From: Desulfovibrio psychrotolerans
GTDB lineage: Bacteria; Desulfobacterota; Desulfovibrionia; Desulfovibrionales; Desulfovibrionaceae
Direction: 5' to 3'
NCBI RefSeq assembly: GCF_013340305.1
Contig: NZ_BLVP01000006.1
Span: forward strand, 124,001 to 188,000
Length of the DNA: 64,000 bases
A program made the position numbers and the translations under genes. Positions 7,659-20,949 of this stretch are shown piece after piece; the first letter of the stretch is position 1, and every line of letters starts with the position of its first letter. The notes under the pieces were generated by a model. It was not told the DNA's origin, ran no database searches, and was given only the letters and a program-made list of their open reading frames with translations.

Positions 7659-8129
7659 GCCCCGACCCCACGCCATGGTCACAGCAAGGCCGTGGCCTGC
7701 TTCAGATGCTCTCCAAACGGCCCGCCGGCAGCACCGGCGGGCCGTTCCGCATAATGGCAAAGATTTTTGAGTTTTTTCGCCTCCGGAGCGCAGCAAAATT
7801 CGCCCTGCTTACACTCCCTTACGCTCCCTATTCCCCCCGGCGGCGAAAAATGGTACCCATCACCATCAATCATGCGGGAAGACTGGCCTTTGCAGCCCGT
7901 TCACTATATCATGGCTTCCACACGAAATTTCACCACGCGGCGGCCTGCCCGCCGTATACGGAGGCGTTCTGCCGCAAGTCTTCCGGATGCAGTCCGGCAG
8001 TCATAAGGCGCACAAATGGGCGCACACGGGCAGCCGCAGCCCCGTACGGACAAAAGCAACCGCAGCACGCGACAGGCCAGACAGCCCATGCGGCACAACG
8101 CATTCCCAGAACCTCAACAGGACAACCCC
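7659..8129. other. Intergenic maeB-nfnA with nested inverted repeats
   Basis: A 471-bp gap with no credible gene. Beyond the 7716-7746 hairpin it holds a long interrupted inverted repeat: 7773-7786 pairs with 7837-7850 (13 of 14 positions, TTTTTCGCC near one end and GGCGAAAAA at the other). Shorter nested arms lie inside (AGCG 7787-7790 with CGCT 7822-7825). The rest up to nfnA shows nothing I can identify. The nfnA promoter should lie here. Confidence 0.5.
7716..7746 (+). terminator. Strong GC hairpin after maeB
   Basis: Thirteen perfect base pairs (7716-7728 with 7734-7746) around a 5-nt CAGCA loop, 58 nt after the maeB stop. It lacks a T-run, so it may be a rho-dependent or mRNA-stabilising hairpin. 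Its place suggests the end of the frd-fum-mae unit. Confidence 0.6.
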
Positions 8130-8978
8130 ATGGCAAACACCATTCTCAAAAAAGAGCGGCTCATCCCCGGCCAGACCAGCAAACTGGTCATCCACGCGCC
8201 GCACATTGCGGCAAAGGCCAAGCCGGGCAACTTTGTCATCCTGCGCGTGAATGAAAAGGGCGAACGCATCCCCCTGACCATAGCGGACACCGACAAGGAA
8301 CACGGCACCATCACCATCGTCTATCTGGTTCTGGGAAAAAGCACCGCCCTGCTGGAAGAACTGAACGAAGGCGATGCCATCCTCGACCTGTGCGGCCCGC
8401 TGGGCAAAGCCACCCACATCCGCACCGGCGGCACCATCATCTGTGTGGGCGGCGGCACGGGCATAGCCGCCATGCACCACATCGCCAAGGGGCACCATGA
8501 AGCGGGCAACCACGTGGTCGCCATCATCGGCGCACGCAGCAAAGACCTGCTGCTCTTCGAGAAGGAACTCAAAAGCTTCTGTCCGGAAGTGCTCATCTCC
8601 ACAGACGACGGCAGCTACGGCCACAAGGGCCTTGTGACCGAACTGCTGAAGGACCGGCTGGAAAAAGACACCACCGTCACCGAGGTGGTGGCCGTGGGCC
8701 CCGTGCCCATGATGGCCGCCGTGGCCCGCACCACGGAACCGTTCGGCGTATACACCACGGTCAGCCTGAACTCCATCATGGTGGACGGCGTGGGCATGTG
8801 CGGTGCCTGCCGCGTCACCGTGGGCGGCGAAACCAGATTCGCCTGCGTGGACGGCCCGGAATTCGACGGCCACAAGGTGGATTTCGCGGAACTGCGGCAG
8901 CGGCTGGCGGCCTTTTCGCCCATGGAGAAGCAATCGTACGAACATCACTGCAGGTGCAAGTGCAATGACAAAAAGTAG
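8130..8978 (+). CDS. nfnA: NfnA-like ferredoxin-NADP reductase subunit (FAD/NAD and [2Fe-2S])
   Basis: Small subunit of the NADH-dependent reduced ferredoxin:NADP oxidoreductase, which couples NADH, NADPH and ferredoxin by flavin-based bifurcation. The start at 8130 gives MANTILKKERLIPGQTSKLV and 282 residues. The flavin domain has ERIPLTIADTD. The nucleotide fold reads IICVGGGTGIAAMHHIAKGH. The C-terminal cluster motif VDGVGMCGACRVTVGG plus RFACVDGPEFDGH gives a C-x2-C-x(about 12)-C pattern for one [2Fe-2S]. The C-terminus is Cys-rich (CRCKCNDKK). The last 14 nt overlap nfnB. The same fold occurs in sulfide dehydrogenase SudB and PyrK; the nfnB partner favours Nfn. Confidence 0.9.
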   Translation: MANTILKKERLIPGQTSKLVIHAPHIAAKAKPGNFVILRVNEKGERIPLTIADTDKEHGTITIVYLVLGKSTALLEELNEGDAILDLCGPLGKATHIRTGGTIICVGGGTGIAAMHHIAKGHHEAGNHVVAIIGARSKDLLLFEKELKSFCPEVLISTDDGSYGHKGLVTELLKDRLEKDTTVTEVVAVGPVPMMAAVARTTEPFGVYTTVSLNSIMVDGVGMCGACRVTVGGETRFACVDGPEFDGHKVDFAELRQRLAAFSPMEKQSYEHHCRCKCNDKK

Positions 8979-10389
8979 GAAGGAAACCGCCCCCCGCGTT
9001 CCCATGCCCAACCAGCCCGCCGATGAACGCAGGCGCAATTTCGATGAAGTGGCGCTGGGCTACACCAGAGAAATGGCCATGCAGGAGGCGCAACGCTGCC
9101 TCCAGTGCAAAAAGCCCAAGTGTGTGAAGGGCTGCCCGGTGGAGGTGCCCATTCCCCAGTTCATCGCCGAACTTGCCAAGGGCGATGTGGAAAAAGCCTA
9201 TCAGGTCATCAAATCCACCAACAGCCTGCCCGCCGTGTGCGGTCGCGTCTGTCCGCAGGAAATCCAGTGCGAAGGTGCCTGCATTCTCGGCGTCAAGGCA
9301 GAACCCGTTGCCATAGGCCGTCTGGAACGCTTCGTAGCGGACGAGTACATGCACATGGACGCCTGCGACCTCATCACCGCAAAGCCGGAATGCCCCCTCA
9401 TCGACGAAGAAAAAAAGGTGGCCTGCATCGGTTCCGGCCCGTCCAGCCTCACGGTCGCCGGCTATCTGGCCTCGCGCGGCTGCAAGGTCACGGTGTTCGA
9501 GGCACTGCATGAGGTGGGCGGCGTGCTGGTCTACGGCATTCCGGAATTCCGCCTGCCCAAGGAAAAAATCGTTGCCAAAGAAGTGAACGCCCTGCGTGAA
9601 CTGGAAGTGGAGTTCGTCACCAACTTCGTGGGCGGCAAGACCTTCAGCATTCAGGACCTGTTCGATCAGGGCTACAAGGCTGTCTTCATAGGCGTGGGTG
9701 CGGGGCTTCCCAAATTCCTGCGCATTCCGGGAGAAAACTTCAACGGCGTGTTCTCCGCCAACGAATATCTCACCCGCGTCAACCTCGGCCGCGCCTACGA
9801 CTTCCCCAATTACGACACCCCCATCATCCGGGGACGCAAGGTCACAGTCTACGGCGGCGGCAACGTGGCCATGGATGCAGCCCGCACGGCCCAGCGTCTG
9901 GGGGCGGAATCGGTGCACATCGTCTACCGCCGCACAGCGGACGCCATGCCCGCACGGCACGAGGAAATCGAGCACGCCGTGGAAGAAGGCATTCATCTGG
10001 AAGTGCTGGCCAATCCTGTGGAATTCAGGGGCGATGAACGCGGCTGCCTCACCTCCGTGCTGCTGCAGCGCATGGAACTGGGCGAACCGGATGCCTCCGG
10101 CAGACGCTCGCCCAAGCCCATTCCCGGCAACACCTACGAGCTGGAAACCGACCTTGCCGTCATTGCCGTGGGCACCAACCCAAACCCGGTGCTGCTGGAA
10201 AATGAACCGGACCTCAAGCTCAACAAATGGGGCTACATACAGGCGGACGAGACCACGGGCGAAACCTCCATCCCCAATGTCTTCGCGGGCGGCGATATCG
10301 TCACCGGCGCAGCCACGGTCATCCTCGCCATGGGCGCGGGACGCCGCGCCGCGCGGGAAATTGCCCGCCGCCTCGGCATACCCGAATAA
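8965..10389 (+). CDS. nfnB: NfnB, glutamate-synthase-small-chain-like flavoprotein
   Basis: Large subunit of NfnAB, holding the bifurcating FAD and two [4Fe-4S] clusters. It runs 474 residues from the ATG at 8965, which overlaps nfnA; an ATG at 9004 is an alternative. CLQCKKPKCVKGCPVEVPIP and CGRVCPQEIQCEGACILG form the N-terminal cluster domain. VACIGSGPSSLTVAGYLASR is the FAD fold, and TVYGGGNVAMDAARTAQRLG the NADPH fold. NVFAGGDIVTGAATVILAMG ends the FAD domain. Paralogous GltD of glutamate synthase is similar, but no large GltB subunit lies nearby and the adjacent nfnA settles the call. Confidence 0.93.
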   Translation: MTKSRKETAPRVPMPNQPADERRRNFDEVALGYTREMAMQEAQRCLQCKKPKCVKGCPVEVPIPQFIAELAKGDVEKAYQVIKSTNSLPAVCGRVCPQEIQCEGACILGVKAEPVAIGRLERFVADEYMHMDACDLITAKPECPLIDEEKKVACIGSGPSSLTVAGYLASRGCKVTVFEALHEVGGVLVYGIPEFRLPKEKIVAKEVNALRELEVEFVTNFVGGKTFSIQDLFDQGYKAVFIGVGAGLPKFLRIPGENFNGVFSANEYLTRVNLGRAYDFPNYDTPIIRGRKVTVYGGGNVAMDAARTAQRLGAESVHIVYRRTADAMPARHEEIEHAVEEGIHLEVLANPVEFRGDERGCLTSVLLQRMELGEPDASGRRSPKPIPGNTYELETDLAVIAVGTNPNPVLLENEPDLKLNKWGYIQADETTGETSIPNVFAGGDIVTGAATVILAMGAGRRAAREIARRLGIPE

Positions 10390-10406
10390 CAGAACATCCG
10401 GAATAC

Positions 10407-10430
10407 GAGGGGGGGGGCCACTCCCCCCTC
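10407..10430 (+). terminator. G-run/C-run hairpin after nfnB
   Basis: GAGGGGGG (10407-10414) can pair with CCCCCCTC (10423-10430), 18 nt after the nfnB stop, within a nine-G tract (10409-10417). No T-run follows. It is a possible terminator or mRNA 3' hairpin between nfnAB and the hdr-flx genes. The long G tract is also a likely sequencing or slippage hotspot. Confidence 0.45.
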
Positions 10431-10652
10431 ACCGGCTGAAAGCATACAGAGCCCTCCCCGTATGGGGCCGTTCACTCACTTCCCTGCCATTTTCCGTGCG
10501 ATTTTCTGCAAAACAGGATATGGTCGGAACAGGAGCCATACGGTTCCGCCGCTCCGCCCGATGGCCGGGGCACAGAAACGCAACCACGTTCAACACGGCG
10601 CATGCCAGCCTTGGGCACCCGCGCCAACGACGCACTACCGGAGCATCCACGC

Positions 10653-11975
10653 ATGTCGGATACCACCAGCAAGCCCAAATCCCTGCCCAAGCATTCCGGC
10701 CCCTCCTTCAAGGACCAGGTGGCCGACCTGCTGCCGGAAGGCGGCAACCTGAACCTGTGCCTCACCTGCGGAGCCTGTTCCGCAGGCTGTCCCGCCACCG
10801 GGCTGGAAGGCATGGACCCCCGCAAATTCCTGCGCATGGCCGCCCTCGGCATGGACGAGGAACTCACGTCCACCCCGTGGGTGTGGATGTGCACCATGTG
10901 CACCCGCTGTGTGCACGTATGCCCCATGCGCATAAATATTCCCCAGCTGGTCTACCACGCCCGCAAAAGCTGGCCGGAAGAAAATAAGCCGCGCGGCATA
11001 GTAAATTCCTGCCTGCAAGCCTTCAAGAACGAAGGCTTCAGCGCCATGGGCGCAAGTTCAGACGATTTCCGCTTCGTGGTGGAAGACATGCTGGAAGAGG
11101 TGCGCGAGAACCAGCCCGGACAGGAAGACCTGCAAGCCCACGTAGACAGGCACGGTGCCGAGTACTTCCTCAACCAGAACTCGCGCGAACCGGTGACCGA
11201 GCCGGACGAAATGGCCCCCCTCTGGAAAATCCTGAACAAGGCGGGCTGCGACTGGACTTACGGCTCCGTGGGCTGGGCGGCAGAGAATTACTGCCTCTTC
11301 GCCGCAGACGATGAACGGTGGGAAGCCATGGTCCGCACCAAGATAAAGGCGGTGGAGGACCTTGGCTGCAAATACTGGCTGAACACGGAGTGAGGCCACG
11401 AACTGTACGCAGTCCGGTTCGGACTGCAAAAATTCAATATCAAGACAGACGTACAGATAGAATCCATCATCCGCCTTTACGCGCGCTGGGTGCGTGAAGG
11501 CAAGCTGTCCGTAAACTCCGACTGGAACAAGGACAACATCAAGTTCACCGTGCAGGACCCCTGCCAGCTGGTGCGCAAATCCTACGGAGACCCCGTGGCA
11601 GATGACCTCCGCTTCGTGGTCAAGGCGGTGGTGGGCGAAGACAACTTCATAGACATGTGGCCCAACAAGTCCAACAATTACTGCTGCGGCGGCGGGGGCG
11701 GGTTCCTGCAATCCGGCTTCCCGGAAGCCCGCCGCTACTACGGCAAGCGCAAGGATGAGCAGATTCGCAACACGGGCGCGCCTTACGTCATCGCGCCCTG
11801 CCACAACTGCCACTCGCAGATTCACGACCTGTCGGAATTCTACGGCGGCGGCTACCATGTGGTGCATCTGTGGACCCTCATCGCCCTGTCGCTGGGCATG
11901 CTCGGCGAAAACGAGCGGGAGTATCTGGGCGCGGACCTGTGCGACTGCGGGCTGTGCGAGACAAACGGCGAATAA
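10653..11975 (+). CDS. HdrC-HdrB fusion (heterodisulfide-reductase-like), selenoprotein with in-frame UGA
   Basis: Disulfide-side subunit of the Flx-Hdr complex. Reading through the TGA at 11391-11393 joins two open frames into one 440-residue protein with Sec at position 247. Residues 1-100 are HdrC-like with two [4Fe-4S] motifs (Cys36, 39, 42, 46 and Cys80, 83, 86, 90). The C-terminal half is HdrB-like: WLNTE[11 protein letters not shown] is the first CCG-type half, and DPCQLVRK ... NYCCGGGGG ... APCHNCHSQ (spacing C-x39-CC-x37-C-x2-C) is the second. Relatives have Cys in the ECGH motif. A perfect 8-bp hairpin (11409-11427) with loop GTT follows the UGA. Alternative: a nonsense mutation. 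Reading frame and homology continue exactly, and a second such UGA lies in the next gene, so Sec is much more likely. Confidence 0.88.
11391..11427 (+). promoter_or_regulatory. UGA selenocysteine codon with SECIS-like hairpin (HdrC-HdrB)
   Basis: The UGA is 11391-11393. GCAGTCCG (11409-11416) pairs perfectly with CGGACTGC (11420-11427), leaving the loop GTT. The apical loop starts 23 nt after the UGA and begins with G. Both fit the loose bacterial SECIS rule: a stem-loop roughly 16-37 nt downstream with G early in the loop. SelB binding is inference. Confidence 0.8.
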
Positions 11976-12010
11976 TCCCACGAACACGCTACCCACGCGG
12001 AGAGGAAGCC

Positions 12011-15000
12011 ATGATCGCAGCAAACGATGAAACTCCGGCCCCCCGGCACACCAAAGCCGTAGGCAATGCGGTGCAGGGTGCCGTCATGGTGGTGGGCGGC
12101 GGCATAGCAGGCATGCAGTCTGCGCTGGACCTCGCCAACGCCGGATTCAAAGTCTATCTGGTGGAGCGCAGCCCCGGCATCGGCGGCATGATGGCGCAAC
12201 TTGCCAAAACATACCCCACCAACGACTGCGCCCTCTGAATACTCTCACCCAAGCTGGTAGAGTGCGGTCGGCACTTGAACATAGAACTCATGCCCCTCAC
12301 CGAGGTGCAGAAGGTGGAAGGCGAAGAAGGCGACATGACCGTGCACCTGCGGCAGTCGCCCCGGTATGTTGACCCGGAAAAATGCATCGCCTGCGGCGAA
12401 TGCGCGCGCAAGTGTCCCAAAAAGGTGCCGGATGCCTTCAATGCGGGCCTGAATACCCGCAAGGCGGCCTACATCCTCTATGACCAGACCGTGCCGCTCA
12501 AATACGCGCTGGACGCGGAGCACTGCATCTACCTGCAAAAGGGCAAGTGCGGCGCGTGCGCCAAGGTCTGCCCGGCAGACGCCATCCGCTTTGACGATGC
12601 ACCGCGCGACCGGACCGTGCGCGTCGGCTCGGTGGTGCTCGCCCCCGGCACAGCCGTCTTCAACCCCGCCCCCTACGACAGTTACGCCTACTCCCGCATC
12701 CCGGACGTCATCACCAGTCTGGAATTTGAGCGCCTGCTTTCCGCCTCCGGCCCCTGTCAGGGGCATGTGCGGCGACCTTCAGACGCCACGGAACCCAGAC
12801 GCATCGCATGGCTGCAATGCGTGGGTTCACGCGCCAACAACCGCTGCGACAACGACTACTGTTCCAATGTCTGCTGCATGTACGCGCTGAAGCAGGCACT
12901 GGTCACGGCAGACCACGCGCAGGGGTCGGGACACGGGCAGGCCATCTTCTTCATGGACGTGCGCGCCCACAACAAGAGCTTTGAAGAATATTACCAGCAG
13001 GCGCAAAACAAGGGCGTGCGCACCCTCAGGGCGCGCCCCCACTCCCTGCTTCCCGGCGAGAACAACCGGGGAGTGGAGGTCGGCTACGTGGACGAGGCAG
13101 GCACCGCCCACACAGAGACCTTCGACCTCATGGTCCTTTCCGTGGGGCTGGAAGCCCCGCCGGAAGCCAAACGGCTGGCAGACCTGTTCCGCATAGAACT
13201 GGACCGCTGGAACTTTGCCGCGACCAATCCCTTCGATCCCGTACGCACCTCACGCAACGGTGTGTATGTGTGCGGCGGCTTTCAGGAGCCCAAAGACATT
13301 CCCCGCTCCGTCATGGAAGCCAGCGCGGCAGCCGCAGCCGCAGCCGCCACCGCCGTCCTTGCCCCCGCGCGCGGCACACAGGCTGCGGAACGCGCCCTGC
13401 CCCCGCAGACAGATGTGCAGGGCGAACCTCCCCGCATAGGCGTGTTCGTCTGCGCCTGCGGCATAAACATCTCCGGCGTCATAGACGTGCACACCCTTGC
13501 GGACTTCGCAGCCACCCTGCCCGGCGTGGTCTACACAGACAACAACATGTTCTCCTGCTCGCAGGATACGCAGGTGCTCATTGCACAGGCCATCCGCACC
13601 CACCGCTTAAACCGCGTGGTGGTGGCAGCCTGCACCCCGCGCACCCACGAACCGCTGTTCCGCAACACGCTGGAATCCGCAGGGCTGAACAAATACCTCT
13701 TCGTCATGGCAAACATCCGCAACCACGGCGCATGGGTGCATGCATCAGACCCGCAGGCCGCCACGCGCAAGGCCATGGATCAGGTGCATATGGCCGTGGC
13801 CAGCGCGCGCCATCTGGCCCCCCTGCGCGAGGTGGAACTGGGCGTCACCCCGGCGGCACTGGTGGCTGGCGGCGGCGTGGCAGGCATGACCGCCGCGCTG
13901 ACCATTGCCGATCAGGGCTTTCAGGTCCACCTTGTGGAACGCCGCCCGGTGCTGGGCGGCAACGCCCGCAGGCTGCGCGTGGCGCAGGGCAACCACCCCG
14001 TGGCCCCCTACCTCGCCGAACTGGAGGCCAGCGTCCGCGCCCATGAACACATCACCCTGCATCTGGAATCGGAAATAACGGCCATAGACGGGTTTGTCGG
14101 CAACTTCGTCACCAGCCTGCGCAGCGGCGCGCAGGAAACAACACAGCTGCGCCACGGCGCGGTGGTGCTGGCAACCGGCGGGCGCGGGCTGGAACCGGAA
14201 GGACTCTACGGCTACGGCACCCATCCAAACATCATGACCCACCAGCGCATAGACGCCGGATTCATGGACGGCAGCCTGAACCCCGCCCATCTCAACACGG
14301 CGGTGTTCATCCAGTGCGTCGGTTCGCGCGAGCCTTACCGCCCCTACTGTTCGCGCGTGTGCTGCACCCACACGGTGGAAAGCGCGCTGCACATCAAGCG
14401 CGAAAACCCGGACACCCGGGTCATCGTCCTCTACCGCGACATGCGCACCTACGGCCAGCGCGAGCTGCTCTACAAGGCGGCGCGTGAGGCAGGCGTCATC
14501 TTCTCCCGCTTCTCGCTGGAACACAGGCCGCAGGTGTCCGTGCGCGACAACGCCATCAGCGTCACCTTCCGCGACCATGTGCTCCAGCAGGACCTGACCG
14601 TGGAAGCGGACCTGCTGGGCCTCGCCTCTGCCATCATCGCCCCGGAAGACAACCCCCCGGCCCACATGGTCAAGGCCCCGGTCAGCGACGAAGGCTGGCT
14701 GGTGGAAGCCCACGCCAAACTGCGCCCGGTAGATTCCGTCACAGACGGCGTCTTCATCGCAGGGCTGGCCCAGTACCCCAAACCGCTGGAAGAAGCCGTC
14801 ACGCAGGCACGCGCCGCAGCCGCCCGCGCCACGGCAGTGCTCTGCCGCACGCACATGACGCTGGCGGGCACCGTGGCTGTCATCAACAAACGCAAATGCG
14901 TGGGCTGCGCGGTGTGCTGGCAGGTCTGCCCCTACAACGCCATCGCCCCGGATGATACGAACCGCGCCGAGGTCAACCCCGCCCTGTGCAAGGGCTGCGG

Positions 15001-15094
15001 GCTGTGCGTCGCCGCCTGCCGCTCGGGTGCGCCCGACCTGCAAGGATTCACCACACGCGACATCATGGCGCAGGTATCCGCCATGCTCGGATAG
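12011..15094 (+). CDS. hdrA: HdrA-type flavo-iron-sulfur protein, extended tandem form, selenoprotein with in-frame UGA
   Basis: Bifurcating flavin subunit of the Flx-Hdr complex. The ATG at 12011 follows AGAGGAAG. Reading through TGA at 12236-12238 gives 1027 residues, far longer than a standard HdrA (about 650). Residues 24-76 hold the first FAD fold ([20 protein letters not shown]) and the HdrA signature TNDCAL[11 protein letters not shown], with Sec at 76. [12 protein letters not shown] and CGACAKVCP follow. After an Ala-rich linker, a second HdrA unit begins ([19 protein letters not shown]) with another FAD fold ([20 protein letters not shown]), but without the CxxC/U cluster motif. The C-terminus has two ferredoxin motifs, [12 protein letters not shown] and [11 protein letters not shown]. 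So the tandem appears to have one cluster-bearing and one plain flavin half. It resembles fused HdrA and QmoB-like proteins. Confidence 0.9.
12236..12276 (+). promoter_or_regulatory. UGA selenocysteine codon with SECIS-like hairpin (HdrA)
   Basis: The UGA is 12236-12238. AGTGC (12261-12265) pairs with GCACT (12271-12275), with G12260-T12276 as a wobble. The loop GGTCG begins with GG, 27 nt after the UGA, as expected for a bacterial SECIS. A competing upstream hairpin (ACTCT 12241-12245 with AGAGT 12259-12263, plus inner ACC/GGT) is also possible. Confidence 0.7.
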
Positions 15095-15103
15095 GAGAAA
15101 GGC

Positions 15104-15658
15104 ATGAAAGAACCGGTTCCGTTCCAACCCCGTATCGTGGCCTTTTTCTGCCACTGGTGTTCCTACGGCGCGGCAGACCTTGCCGGGGTCAGCCGTCTGG
15201 AATACCCGGCAGATTTCCGTGCCGTGCGCATTCCCTGCACCGGCAGCATGAGCCCAAAATACATCCTGCACGCCCTGCGGCAGGGCGCGGACGGCGTGTG
15301 GGTTTCCGGCTGTCATCCCGGCGACTGTCACTACGCCACCGGCAACCTGCACGCCCGCAGGCGGCTGGAACTGCTCAAGAACATGCTCGCCTACATCGGC
15401 ATAGAAGAAGGCCGCATCCATTTTTCATGGATATCCTCGGCAGAGGCGCAAAAATTCCAGCAGATGGCCATTTCCGTGGTGGAATCGGTGCGGGCGCTCG
15501 GCCCGAACACCCGTCTGGTCAAAAGCATCCGCAACAACGCCATTCCGCCCATCCCGCCCTTTACCAACGGGAACGGATACGCGGATAACGGCTACACCCG
15601 CGGCGGCGCGCAAACCACCTCCGGCAATGCCGCAGGCGGCAGGGAGGAGCAGTCATGA
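15104..15658 (+). CDS. flxD: FlxD/MvhD-like [2Fe-2S] electron-transfer subunit
   Basis: Links the NADH-oxidising Flx part to HdrA, as MvhD links hydrogenase to Hdr in methanogens. The 184 residues open with RIVAFFCHWCSYGAADLAG (Cys16, Cys19), then RIPCTGSMSPKYILHALRQG and VSGCHPGDCHYATGN, the four or five conserved Cys of the family. The C-terminal 40 residues are Gly/Asn/Pro-rich, low in complexity and not part of the domain. It begins 9 nt after hdrA behind AGGAGAAAGG, and its stop overlaps the next start as ATGA. FlxD letters follow the usual gene naming; no biochemistry is visible here. Confidence 0.92.
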   Translation: MKEPVPFQPRIVAFFCHWCSYGAADLAGVSRLEYPADFRAVRIPCTGSMSPKYILHALRQGADGVWVSGCHPGDCHYATGNLHARRRLELLKNMLAYIGIEEGRIHFSWISSAEAQKFQQMAISVVESVRALGPNTRLVKSIRNNAIPPIPPFTNGNGYADNGYTRGGAQTTSGNAAGGREEQS

Positions 15659-16635
15659 TGCACCAGCGCACACAGGCCATCCGCGCCGCCGCCCGCAAAC
15701 TCCTTGCACAAGGCAGGGTGGATGTGGTCATCGGCTACACGCAGGGCACCATTCCCCTGCGCGCCCAGCCGTATCTGGCCTACACGCCGGAAGAATGCGA
15801 CAGGCTCATCTGGAGCAGCTTCTGCGGCGGCAACCTTGCCACCTTCGCCTCCGGGCGCACAGACCGCGTTGCCGTGGTGGCGCAGGGCTGCGTTTCGCGC
15901 AACCTGAACGGCCTCATCCACGAAAAACGCCTCCGGCGTGAGAACCTGTATGTCATCGGCGTGCCCTGTCTGGGCATGCTGGACCAGCGCAAGGTGGAGA
16001 CAAAAACCGCCGGACGCATCGTGGCAACGCTGGAAAACGACCCCGAAGAGGACATGGGCGAAATAACGGTCAGCGGCTGCGATGCTGCGGGCGAGTGCTT
16101 TACCGAACGCCTCAAGCGGCGCGATGTAAAGCGCGACAACTGCTACACCTGCATGCACCGCAACCCGGTCATCGCGGACGAGATGGTGGCTGAGCCCGTA
16201 ACCGAGACCGCCGGGGGCGACATAAACGCCGTTGCCGCCCCGTGGGAGCGGTTCGATGCCGAACGCCGCTGGGCGGAGTTCACCAAAACCTTCGAGGACT
16301 GCATCCGCTGCTACGCCTGCCGCGACATCTGCCCCCTGTGCTACTGCACCACCTGCTTCACGGACGAATCAGACCCCCAGTGGTGCGGCAAAACGCAGGA
16401 CCCGGCAGACGTGCAGACCTTCCACATCCTGCGCGCCTTCCACTGCGCGGGGCGCTGCACCGACTGCGGCGCGTGCGAAACAGCCTGCCCGCAGGGCATC
16501 CGCATGCGCCGCCTGACCAGCAAACTGGAAAAGGACGTGCGCACCCTGTGGGGGCACGACCCCGGCATGGACAGCGAGGCGGAACCGCCCCTCGCCACCT
16601 ACCGCCCGGACGATCCCCAAGAGCACTTCAAATAG
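15655..16635 (+). CDS. flxC: FlxC-like iron-sulfur subunit
   Basis: A 326-residue cytoplasmic Fe-S protein of the flx cluster. The N-terminal half (to about 190) has no ferredoxin motif but contains WSSFCGGNLATFA, VVAQGCVSRNLNGLI and IGVPCLGMLDQ, resembling the F420-hydrogenase-beta-like fold seen in FlxC and related proteins. NCYTCMHRNPV precedes a C-terminal cluster domain: DCIRCYACRDICPLCYCTTC and CTDCGACETACPQGI, giving at least two [4Fe-4S] sites with an excess of Cys. It overlaps flxD by ATGA and is followed 9 nt later by flxB. The exact electron path through it is unknown to me. Confidence 0.82.
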   Translation: MMHQRTQAIRAAARKLLAQGRVDVVIGYTQGTIPLRAQPYLAYTPEECDRLIWSSFCGGNLATFASGRTDRVAVVAQGCVSRNLNGLIHEKRLRRENLYVIGVPCLGMLDQRKVETKTAGRIVATLENDPEEDMGEITVSGCDAAGECFTERLKRRDVKRDNCYTCMHRNPVIADEMVAEPVTETAGGDINAVAAPWERFDAERRWAEFTKTFEDCIRCYACRDICPLCYCTTCFTDESDPQWCGKTQDPADVQTFHILRAFHCAGRCTDCGACETACPQGIRMRRLTSKLEKDVRTLWGHDPGMDSEAEPPLATYRPDDPQEHFK

Positions 16636-16644
16636 GAGGCAACC

Positions 16645-17679
16645 ATGCGACACCGTATACTCAGCAAGGACAGCCTCGCCGGATTTCTGGAAGAACTGCG
16701 GGCAGAATACACCGTTTTCGCCCCCCGGCAGGACACCAAGGTGCCCAGCAAAACCGTATGGAAAGAACTGCAGCAGGACGAGGTGCCGGATTTCCGCTTC
16801 GTGAACACCGACATGTCGCCCAAGCACTTCATGTTTCCGCAAAGCGAATGCATGCTGCGGTATGAAGACCCCGCAGCCCCCGTGCTCGCCCCCGTGGAGC
16901 ACGACAGCCGAAAGAGGCTGCTCCTGAACGTGCGCCCCTGCGATGCACGGGCCCTTGCCTTCATGGACACCGTGTTCTGTCAGGACCAGCGCACCAATGA
17001 TGCCTACTGGCAGGAAAAACGCAACCGCACCGTCATGGTGGGGCTTGCCTGCAACAACCCCTGCCCCACCTGTTTCTGCCATCAGGCAAACAGCGGCCCG
17101 CACGATGAAACAGGGCTGGACCTGCTGCTGGTGGACCTTGGCAACCGCCTGCTGGCAAAGCCCCTTACGGAGGCGGGCAAATCCATGGCTGCCGGGCTGC
17201 CCGATGCGGAGGAAGAAGACATCCTGCGCGGCAAAGAACTTATGCAGCGCGCCCACGAGGCCATGCCTCCGGTCATCGCCACAGACAATCTGGAACACCG
17301 CACCCTGCTGGAACTCTACAACCTGCCCTACTGGAAACGGGTGTGCGAAACCTGCATAAACTGCGGCACCTGCACCTTTGTGTGCCCCACCTGCCACTGC
17401 TTCGACATTCAGGATGAGACAACGCCCGACGGTGGCAAGGGCCGCCGCGTGCGTAACTGGGATTTCTGCATGGCCCCGCTGTTCACACTGCACACCTCCG
17501 GGCATAACCCGCGCGGCGAAAAGGCGGCACGGGTGCGGCAGCGGTTCATGCACAAATATAAATACATCCCCATGCGCCAACCGGCAGAGGTGGGCTGCGT
17601 GGGTTGCGGCCGCTGCGTGCGGCTGTGCCCCGTAAACATAGACATCCGCGATGTCATAAACGCCATGAATCAGGGCTGA
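16645..17679 (+). CDS. flxB: FlxB-like iron-sulfur subunit (sulfhydrogenase beta / AsrA family)
   Basis: A 344-residue protein that partners FlxA in moving electrons from NADH. The N-terminal 240 residues are the domain shared with archaeal sulfhydrogenase beta and anaerobic sulfite reductase subunit A, with LLNVRPCDARALAFMD and VGLACNNPCPTCFCHQANSG. The C-terminal ferredoxin domain has CETCINCGTCTFVCPTCHCF and GCVGCGRCVRLCPVNIDI, two [4Fe-4S] clusters. The ATG at 16645 follows AGGAGGC. Its position between flxC and flxA and its Cys pattern support the call. Alternative family names are HydB or AsrA. Confidence 0.87.
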   Translation: MRHRILSKDSLAGFLEELRAEYTVFAPRQDTKVPSKTVWKELQQDEVPDFRFVNTDMSPKHFMFPQSECMLRYEDPAAPVLAPVEHDSRKRLLLNVRPCDARALAFMDTVFCQDQRTNDAYWQEKRNRTVMVGLACNNPCPTCFCHQANSGPHDETGLDLLLVDLGNRLLAKPLTEAGKSMAAGLPDAEEEDILRGKELMQRAHEAMPPVIATDNLEHRTLLELYNLPYWKRVCETCINCGTCTFVCPTCHCFDIQDETTPDGGKGRRVRNWDFCMAPLFTLHTSGHNPRGEKAARVRQRFMHKYKYIPMRQPAEVGCVGCGRCVRLCPVNIDIRDVINAMNQG

Positions 17680-17826
17680 TGCCTGAACCGAATCCTCGCA
17701 GATTTCACGGCCCACGCGGCACAGGCAGCCGCAGACTCGGTTTCCGCAGGCCGCAAGCGCGCCGGGAGCAGTTTACAGCAACGCAGCAGATTGCCGTTTC
17801 CAACGGCCTGAAAGGGTACAAAGACC

Positions 17827-18666
17827 ATGCTGAACCCCTACCTCCCCTACCCCGTCCGCATTGCAGAGGTGCGCACGGAAACAGAGGATAAGACCCTGCG
17901 CACCTACGCGCTGGACTTCCTGCACGAACGCGATGCGGCAGCCTTCGCCTACCGTCCCGGCCAGTTTGCGGAACTTTCCGTGGCCGGTGCGGGAGAGGTT
18001 CCCATCGGCATTGCCTCCAGCCCCACGGAAGGCACCCGCCTGCTCTTCACCGTCTTCCGCGCGGGCACGGTCACATCGCGCCTGCACCAGATGCGCGAAG
18101 GCGACCTCATGGGCGTGCGTGGTCCGCTGGGCAACGGCTTCCCGCTGCAATCGCATGAAGGGAAGAACATCCTCATCGTGGCGGGCGGTTATGCCGTCAC
18201 CACGCTCCGGTCGGTCATGGTCTGGCTGCAACACCCGCAAAACCGCTCCCGCTTCGGCGAAGTGGATTTCGTCTACGGCGCGCGCACGCCGGGAATGCTG
18301 CTGTACCGGGATGAAATGAACGCATGGTCGCAGACCGCCGGGGTGCGCTGCCACATCACCGTGGACAGGGAAGCCCCCGGATGGACAGGCCTTACCGGAT
18401 TCGTGCCCGCCGTGGTGGAACAGCTGGCCCCCGACCCGCATAACGCCATTGCGCTGGTCTGCGGCCCCCCCGCCATGATCCGGTTCACCCAGCCCGTGCT
18501 TGATGCCCGTGGCTGGCAGGGCGACCAGATTTTCCTCTCGCTGGAAAACCGCATGAAGTGCGGCATAGGCATCTGCGGCCGCTGCAACGTGGGGCATCAG
18601 TATGTCTGCAAGGACGGCCCCGTGTTCAGCAAGGCCGAGCTGGACCTGCTGCCTGCGGAGTATTAG
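17827..18666 (+). CDS. flxA: FlxA, FAD/NAD(P)-binding subunit
   Basis: NADH dehydrogenase subunit of Flx-Hdr, related to the gamma subunit of sulfhydrogenase and to AsrB. The 279 residues show the ferredoxin-reductase-like flavin domain with AYRPGQFAELSVAGAGEVPI and GIASSPTEGTRL, and the nucleotide domain with GPLGNGFPL, ILIVAGGYAVTTLRSVM and ALVCGPPAMIRFTQPVL. The terminal CGICGRCNVGHQYVCKDGPVF gives four Cys for a [2Fe-2S]. It starts 147 nt after flxB, a gap with no gene that I can see. It ends the 13-gene block and is followed by a canonical terminator. Confidence 0.92.
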   Translation: MLNPYLPYPVRIAEVRTETEDKTLRTYALDFLHERDAAAFAYRPGQFAELSVAGAGEVPIGIASSPTEGTRLLFTVFRAGTVTSRLHQMREGDLMGVRGPLGNGFPLQSHEGKNILIVAGGYAVTTLRSVMVWLQHPQNRSRFGEVDFVYGARTPGMLLYRDEMNAWSQTAGVRCHITVDREAPGWTGLTGFVPAVVEQLAPDPHNAIALVCGPPAMIRFTQPVLDARGWQGDQIFLSLENRMKCGIGICGRCNVGHQYVCKDGPVFSKAELDLLPAEY

Positions 18667-18740
18667 CGGAACGGCTGCGCTTTCTTGCTGTCCACAAGCC
18701 ACCAAACTCCCTGAACTTCAGCTCATTTCTGCAAACAAAA

Positions 18741-18769
18741 ACGGACCGGCCCAAACCGGTCCGTTTTTT
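18741..18769 (+). terminator. Rho-independent terminator of the hdr-flx block
   Basis: Nine perfect pairs (18741-18749 with 18756-18764), a 6-nt loop and a T6 run at 18764-18769. It lies 75 nt after the flxA stop and just before the convergent chemoreceptor gene. Confidence 0.93.
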
Positions 18770-18789
18770 CTTTCAGATACCCCTTCTCT

Positions 18790-20949
18790 CTACTGCCCTT
18801 CCAGCTCCACGATAAGCTTCTTCAGTTCCCCGGCCTGCTCGCTCAATTCGGCAACGGCGCGGGAGGCCTCGCGCATGGCGTCCGCCGTCTCGCTGGATAT
18901 GCGGTTCACGTCCTCTATGGAGTTGCTTATCTCCTCAGTGGCGGAAGACTGCTGCTCCGCCGCCGTGGCTATGGCACGCACCTGATCAGACGCCTTCAGG
19001 GAAAACGAGACAATGTGCCCGAGCAGCTCCTCGGCCTTGCCCATGCCCTCCATGGACTGGGCAAGCACGCCCTTGTTCTTGTCCATGCCGCCAAGGGTTT
19101 CCCGCACCGCCTGCTGTATGGCAGAAATAGACTGCCCCACTTCCTTGGTGGCGGTCATGGTCTTTTCCGCCAGCTTGCGCACCTCATCCGCCACCACGGC
19201 AAATCCGCGTCCGGCATCTCCGGCACGGGCCGCTTCAATGGCCGCGTTCAGGGCCAGCAGGTTGGTCTGGTCGGCAATATCCTCAATGGTCTGGGCAATC
19301 ATGCCTATGCCGTCCGCCTTGCGGCTCAGTTCTTCAACCGAACCGTACACGGTCATAAACCCGTTATTCACCGCGCCCACATCGCGCAGCACCACGGCAA
19401 ACTGCTCAGCCCCCGCCTGCGCCGCCTGCCGCGATTCTTCAGAGAGCGTTGCCGTTGCTTCGGCATTGCGGGCAATCTCCATAACGGAAGCACTCATCTC
19501 CTCCATGGCAGATGCTGTTTCCGCCACCCGTTCCGACTGCGCCTCCGCCCCACGGCTGGATTCGTCAATCTGGGCAGAAAGTTCCGTGGACGCGGAAGAA
19601 ACAACCTCCACCACGCCCTGCAGACGCTGGGCTGCCGCGTGCATCCCCTCGCGCTTGGCGCTCTCTGCCTTGCGGGTGGCCTCTTCCGCCACGGCCCGTG
19701 CGCTTTCCGCAGCCTGCGCGCTGGCACGGGCTTCCTGCGTCTGCATTTCCGCCTCGCGCATCTTTTCCTTCAGCGAAGCCACCATGGAAACCATGGCCCC
19801 GCGCAGTACGCCGAATTCACTATGGAAGCTGCCCTGAATGGACGCGTCCAGATTCCCCTCCGCCACGGCACGCGAAAAGCCGGAAAGCGCCATAATGGGC
19901 CGTATGACCATGGCGTTCAGCGCTACCAGAATCACGCCCGACAGCAGCAGCAACGCGGCAATAACGCCTGCCGTGGTCCACGTGTTCGCCTGCATCAGCG
20001 CATTGGCCTGCGCAAAAAGTTCCGGTGCAGGCACGGCAATGCCCAGTCCCATGCCCGTCTGCGTCACGCTGTAAAAGACCAGATGTTCCACGCCCTCAAT
20101 CTGCGTCGTAAACTGGGTGCTCTGCCCGCTTCCAAGGTTCATCAGCCCCTTATCTGCCTCCATGGAAAAGGGCAGGCTGGAAACCGGCTTGAGCAGGCGC
20201 GCATTATCAGCGGGATAGGCCGCAATAAGCCCGTAGCGCGTGTCCACGGCAAAAGCCAGCGACGACTCCGTAACGCGTATGTCGCCCACCACGCGCCGCA
20301 GGTCCTCCATGCTCACATCCAGCGTAGACATGCCCGCAATGGCTCCGTCCGGCCCGTAGAGAATACCCCCCACGGTAATCATGAGCGCGTTGGTCCCTTC
20401 GGAATCCTCATACGGTGCAGACCAGTAAACCCGTGCATCCCTGCGCTGCCTGCGGTTCCAGTCGGCGGGAATGGCCTGTGTGTACCAGTCCTGCTTGTGG
20501 TAATCGTACTCTGCCGTATTGTAGTCCATGGTAAAGGCTATCTTGCCGCTGTCCCAGTAGGCATAGGGGCCGTAATACTGCCTGTCCTCAAAAAATACAT
20601 TGGGCTCAAACCACAGCCCGCTGCCCACTGCCGTAGGGTACTTCGCCACCGCAGACTCAAGGAAGGCACGCACCTGCGCCTCTATGTCCTCACCCGTGGC
20701 CTGCCGCACGCGCAGAAGCGCTTCTCCCGCCGTGGCTATGCTGTCCGCCGCATCCTGCATAACCGCCATGTAGGTGTTAATTTTCTCGGCTTCCGTCTCT
20801 ATGCGGCTTTCCACAGCCCGCTTCGTCTCTTCCACATATCTGGCTTCCATTTCCCGCACGTTGCCGAGCAGAATCACATATCCCGCCAGCGAAACCACAA
20901 TGGTCACGGCGATAAGCGCCAGCACCTTGTACCGAACCGACATATTCAT
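18790..20949 (-). CDS. Methyl-accepting chemotaxis protein with double-Cache sensor
   Basis: Transmembrane chemoreceptor, 719 residues. A short cytoplasmic start is followed by TM1 (about 8-28), a periplasmic dCache-type domain (about 35-325; [31 protein letters not shown] and [10 protein letters not shown] are typical), TM2 (about 330-352), HAMP and the signalling helices. The hairpin tip [20 protein letters not shown] and [15 protein letters not shown] are unmistakable. The ATG at 20949 follows AGAGG. There is no C-terminal pentapeptide for CheR tethering. The ligand is unknown. Adjacency to the divergent octaheme cytochrome may hint at an electron-acceptor signal, but this is only positional. 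Confidence 0.95.

Follow-up and report, generated by a model that had tools for sequence, protein, structure and literature searches.

The closest described systems are cited here from those parts of the reviews and papers that were available to us. A 2026 review lists an "Fe-S oxidoreductase-like protein" selenoprotein with the motif UGH and credits it to Kryukov and Gladyshev (2004), while the same UGH selenoprotein is named GlpC (COG0247) in a 2022 review. Zhang (2006) listed GlpC as a selenocysteine (Sec) family, D. vulgaris included, and described an operon of the order glpC-hdrA-frhD-frhG-frhA. Strittmatter (2009) listed HdrD4, a protein made of HdrC plus HdrB, as Sec containing (PMC2702500), and the FlxABCD-HdrABC system of D. 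vulgaris has been linked to NADH and DsrC in published papers. In the membrane protein EtfD of mycobacteria, the ligands include Cys581 for the linear cluster D1 and His583 for the noncubane cluster D2, and the accessible portion of that paper (PMC13083937) calls the His583-capped noncubane cluster noncatalytic. Our literature search, which covered papers other than the main ones on Flx, found no description of an Flx-linked Sec version, which may be in print, and returned nothing on noncubane clusters with DsrK/DsrC or on a DsrMKJOP cryo-EM structure with a trisulfide.

Here, we analyzed a stretch of 64,000 nucleotides from Desulfovibrio psychrotolerans (contig NZ_BLVP01000006.1, positions 124,001 to 188,000), referred to as the window, in which all the features described below lie on the forward strand. 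The gene at 10653 to 11975 codes for an HdrD-like protein of 440 residues, in which family scans recognize an HdrC-type part with two [4Fe-4S] motifs fused to an HdrB-type C-terminal CCG domain. Only one TGA interrupts this frame, at 11391 to 11393, and translation together with the comparison of homologues has it read as Sec at residue 247, within the motif NTE-U-GHE. A first-pass annotation had already proposed a lone in-frame TGA at 11391 in an HdrC-HdrB fusion belonging to an Flx-Hdr cluster, and the translated gene bears out both the TGA and the union of the two domains in a single gene, although the 194 codons that it counted after the TGA are actually 193 sense codons, followed by the stop at 11973 to 11975. 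Among 96 homologous stretches covering the site (the best 80 of 391 loci plus the genus and own-genome loci, with the window gene counted and at least three genomes present twice), the codon in column 247 was TGA in 90, TGC in five, and TGT in one, so that all 96 homologues checked have either TGA or a Cys codon. The same column is Cys or Sec in 74/74 rows of a protein alignment built from 73 of 120 homologous stretches and the window gene. This alignment omits L054 (internal stop) as well as L129, L124:1489, and L045:5001 (second TGA), and the other omitted rows are mostly close copies, picked by hand.

Downstream from the TGA, folding and orthologue comparison locate a bacterial SECIS hairpin at 11409 to 11427, GCAGTCCG-GTT-CGGACTGC, with 8 bp and an apical loop GTT. 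The stem begins after a gap of 15 nt and the loop after a gap of 23 nt from the TGA, exactly the hairpin that had been noticed at first pass, and it belongs to the minimum-energy fold for all three stretch lengths. Taken by itself, it is unusual compared to dinucleotide shuffles (z of -2.15 to -2.30 for three lengths) and not unusual compared to synonymous-codon shuffles (z of -0.80). Since the window fold alone is ordinary by the latter measure, the strength of the SECIS case comes from the orthologue comparison. Each of the 102 distinct TGA orthologues, among them the window gene, has a hairpin of at least 4 bp, with the loop starting at +23 (99 cases) or +22 (three cases) and with G as the first loop base in every one of them. 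Among the Cys orthologues, the best hairpin was found at +23 in only 1/11, and 5/11 had G at the first or second loop position. Paired stem cells amounted to 775/816 in TGA orthologues versus 58/88 in Cys orthologues; the hairpin-position and stem-pairing counts refer to orthologues with an identity of at least 60%, which excludes eight distant rows (seven Cys and one TGA). Synonymous-codon shuffling gave a mean z of -2.11 for TGA genes (n = 102), +0.08 for Cys orthologues (n = 11), and -0.59 for distant Cys paralogues (n = 7), the latter being the seven Cys rows below 60% identity. The alifold energy was -9.8, compared to about -3.9 when synonymous codons were permuted within columns (50 sets), while the mean single-sequence hairpin score was barely above that of permuted sets (19.7 versus 19.3, with 1/200 reaching the observed value). 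An Rfam scan of window positions 8000 to 20000 at a permissive threshold gave five weak matches, none of them to SECIS and none near the TGA.

The next gene (12011 to 15094) is HdrA-like by family scans, with two HdrA-type flavoprotein stretches and a second in-frame TGA at 12236 to 12238, which translation places at residue 76 (C-A-L-U). Its context, TNDCAL-U-ILSPKL, corresponds to CxxU, a Sec motif of HdrA already published according to the part of the 2026 review available to us. Family scans also identified an FlpD/MvhD-type electron-transfer subunit without an in-frame TGA (15104 to 15658, FlxD position), a Fer4 protein with weak FrhB similarity (15655 to 16635, FlxC position), and an AsrA/HydB-type Fe-S protein (16645 to 17679, FlxB position); an FAD/NAD(P)-binding AsrB/HydG-type protein (17827 to 18666) occupies the FlxA position. 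We take the genes from 15104 to 18666 to be Flx genes by position and not by an Flx-specific model. Gene order and family matches together put FlxA-, B-, C-, and D-type genes and HdrA in the same window, and the Flx-Hdr setting proposed at first pass is supported on these grounds. Directly upstream of the HdrD gene, family scans found a sulfide/dihydroorotate dehydrogenase-like FAD/NAD-binding protein (8016 to 8978) and a GltA-type NAD(P)H flavoprotein (8803 to 10389, with a mechanical ORF start), presumably NfnA-like and NfnB-like, respectively; an NfnB-like gene is also found upstream in L134, L136, and L141.

The complete HdrD-HdrA-FlpD-FlxC-B-A set was present in 5/21 stretches (the window and 20 from relatives), and in all five complete clusters the Sec/Cys state of HdrA matched that of HdrD, with Sec codons in both genes in the window, L134, L136, and L141 and Cys codons in both in L148. 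Across 348 genomes, the 26 strongest FlxC matches include 11 that share a contig with an HdrD match within ca. 17 kb, a linkage that rests on distance, as the intervening genes are mostly unread. Ten of these 11 HdrD matches have an internal TGA (Sec site confirmed in five), and one has none. The Flx link of HdrD does not hold throughout, since six of the ten members of the genus have HdrD without an HdrA or Flx match within the stretch, with the contig of L138 ending just past the gene. In two loci (L021 and L041), HdrD(U)-HdrA(U)-FlpD is followed by hydrogenase-like genes, an order that resembles the 2006 operon; a family scan, of L041 only, gave scores below the model cutoffs, with the genes cut by the locus end. 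Among the best 80 of 391 loci, many of which are incomplete, an HdrA-like match of at least 30% identity was detected in 31, and FlpD was directly upstream in 17. One locus (L055:6304-8025) carries a CoA-disulfide-reductase-like flavoprotein, scoring below the family cutoff, between Sec-HdrD and Sec-HdrA, a hint at a thiol/disulfide substrate.

The predicted structure of the HdrD-like protein (pLDDT 89, pTM 0.87) found its best fold match in mycobacterial EtfD (9ojn; Z of 26.4, rmsd of 3.4, and 373 aligned positions) and also matched HdrB (5odc_B; Z of 21.2, rmsd of 2.8, and 253 aligned positions). The positions invariant across the 74 rows include 247, all eight Cys in the pair of [4Fe-4S] motifs, and all five in the C-terminal CCG motif. 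The second CCG motif, which had been noted after the TGA at first pass, is indeed found there (C304, C344-C345, C383, and C386) with a complete C...CC...CxxC pattern. As for the earlier assignment of Sec to the first CCG half, the site does lie in the N-terminal half, but the motif is not intact and most ligand Cys are missing. Neither CC nor CxxC occurs within residues 160 to 249 in the 74 rows; the only positions of this range that are commonly Cys or Sec are 214 (67/74), 239 (54/74), and 247 (74/74), and a Cys at any position from 160 to 213 is kept in at most 6/74 rows. When the two CCG halves were compared by profile, nothing significant emerged, and C214 was not established as the counterpart of a CC ligand of HdrB.

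Profile alignments to PDB sequences, with the residues counted by hand, match U247 with EtfD Cys581 and H249 (kept in 70/74 rows) with His583, while E250 stands at Cys584. In Elp-HdrB, U247 falls on the first Cys of ECNGC (CxxC), and in the alignment to 5odc HdrB the Sec site is outside the aligned range. An equivalence of Sec with the second Cys of CxxC was also considered and dropped, as the PDB alignments put Sec on the first. Because E250 replaces Cys584 and few other N-terminal Cys are widely kept, the first CCG half has lost most of its cluster ligands, and the N-terminal cluster is probably absent. Sec247 probably sits beside the remaining noncubane cluster, given that U247 falls on Cys581 and H249 on the cluster-ligating His583. 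In DsrK, TmcB, and HmcF from this genome, the residues aligned with the Sec site read E-C-G-H, which suggests that Sec may mark a redox residue common to this group.

We consider it likely that the gene encodes a functional selenoprotein and that this protein serves an Flx-HdrA complex linked to NAD(P)H as its soluble HdrD-like (HdrC plus HdrB) subunit. The UGA at 11391 would be decoded as Sec through the hairpin at 11409 to 11427, and electrons would pass from FlxA via FlxB/C/D to HdrA (bifurcation) and then, by way of the [4Fe-4S] cluster pair in the HdrC part, reach the C-terminal CCG half with its single intact noncubane cluster. Sec247, located on the degenerate N-terminal half facing this cluster, would help to cleave a disulfide or a trisulfide, for which DsrC is the most likely carrier, with the widely kept C214 as a possible partner. 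For this catalytic step alone, we judge the chances to be about even. The first pass had placed Sec where disulfide reduction is catalyzed, a plausible proposal that is supported by position (the ligand Cys of EtfD, the first Cys of the HdrB CxxC, and the vicinity of the His583 equivalent); the N-terminal cluster that a full CCG motif would bind is probably absent.

It is also quite possible, with somewhat less than an even chance, that Sec is only structural or involved in electron transfer, all else being as proposed except the catalytic step. The selenium would then ligate an iron of a small D1-like cluster or of the noncubane cluster and tune its potential or oxygen stability, with no attack on a substrate. 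The alignment of U247 with a ligand of the linear [3Fe-4S] cluster of EtfD points in this direction, and so does the conserved H249 at the place of the residue that caps a noncubane cluster called noncatalytic in the accessible EtfD text; on the other hand, counterparts seem to be missing for two of the four D1 ligands, with E250 at Cys584 and no widely kept Cys in residues 160 to 213, where an equivalent of Cys503 would be expected. The retained C386 corresponds to Cys234, the bridging Cys whose displacement is seen in catalytic HdrB, but it does not decide between a catalytic and a ligand role because EtfD also keeps that Cys. The chalcogen of E-[C/U]-G-H could be what attacks the substrate throughout the DsrK/TmcB/HmcF/HdrD-like group, acting on the DsrC disulfide or trisulfide, a generalization that we offer tentatively and regard as less likely than not. 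The N-terminal CCG half would have given up its cluster and become a Cys/Sec redox site that faces the one noncubane cluster, and the natural Cys-Sec swap in a soluble member would mark the DsrC-handling residue. A catalytic Sec would also make one particular Cys a target for mutation in DsrK, an enzyme central to sulfate respiration.

The genes for Sec synthesis and insertion, proposed at first pass as a check, are all present in the genome, namely, selA, selB (366 bits), selD, and the tRNA-Sec gene selC (79.4 bits, anticodon TCA). Together with the TGA/Cys column and the hairpin of the orthologues, they support Sec insertion as first proposed. That the TGA reflects a pseudogene, a sequencing error, or a true stop is scarcely credible, for although TGA is a stop in table 11 and the window hairpin alone is only moderately unusual, the same TGA recurs in the 90 stretches mentioned above, from many organisms, with the sequence on both sides and the SECIS pairing conserved. 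A sequencing error in particular is very unlikely because the identical TGA is present in many other genomes. Equally negligible is a genome-wide reassignment of TGA, since reading TGA through does open the frame, but doing so for every TGA yields long frames with up to 43 TGA, SelA, SelB, SelD (itself with one internal TGA), and tRNA-Sec are present, and the site is Cys in homologues. On this comparative evidence, the TGA at 11391 is almost certainly read as Sec in an iron-sulfur protein of a sulfate reducer.

On a rapidly built tree with 122 rows (105 Sec and 17 Cys; SH-aLRT support only, rooting uncertain), the Sec/Cys label requires seven changes, fewer than in any of 500 shuffles. One clade of seven Cys copies (support of 100) includes the tandem Cys copies and the Cys HdrD of the L148 Flx cluster. 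Sec and Cys HdrD genes stand in tandem in five genomes (L142, L143, L146, L124=L145, and L059=L144), and the grouping of the tandem Cys copies in one separate clade speaks against their being recent selenium-responsive isoforms. One genus member (L018, genome G001) has the Cys codon TGT at the site, probably a recent Sec-to-Cys change, which is not explained by loss of selA or selD, as both are kept. A distant paralogue with 33% identity (L061:2776-3990) likewise has a TGA at the ECGH position, and matches of 33 to 35% identity with a TGA somewhere inside were seen in six genomes (G044, G045, G046, G048, G052, and G053).

An old selenoprotein prediction is now supported by a strong comparative test, and its Sec could be placed on solved structures that postdate the first listing of the family (HdrB in 2017 and EtfD in 2025). 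What is added here is a new hint at where the selenium sits: Sec could be positioned relative to HdrB and EtfD, and it matches a Cys that DsrK, TmcB, and HmcF retain. With regard to known systems, the window protein shares U-G-H with GlpC (COG0247/PTHR43551), along with the Fe-S motifs and CCG domain, and GlpC likewise adjoins a Sec-containing hdrA in Deltaproteobacteria, as far as the available text goes. The same text gives the GlpC operon the hydrogenase genes frhGA where the window has Flx genes, and the likeness to the published GlpC members, for which WP_174406253.1 is a listed accession, is one of motif and description only. HdrD4 of Desulfobacterium autotrophicum HRM2, likened by its description in the accessible part of the source, is a soluble Sec-containing HdrC plus HdrB fusion like that of the window. 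The FlxABCD-HdrABC system of D. vulgaris combines an Flx module with HdrA, as in the window, but the portions available to us name HdrB and HdrC as separate subunits instead of one fused Sec gene. DsrK, TmcB, and HmcF are profile relatives that share the E-C-G-H position but, unlike the window protein, are membrane-complex subunits with Cys, and the window protein scores far below their curated cutoffs (153.4/750 bits for HmcF, 149.1/735 for TmcB, and 104.5/400 for DsrK). The CPH of the EtfD CxxC aligns with U-G-H, but EtfD has Cys in place of Sec and a linear [3Fe-4S] cluster whose ligands the window protein mostly lacks. The window protein is a real selenoprotein from a family known for about twenty years, and its operon is a variant, linked to Flx, of one already known.
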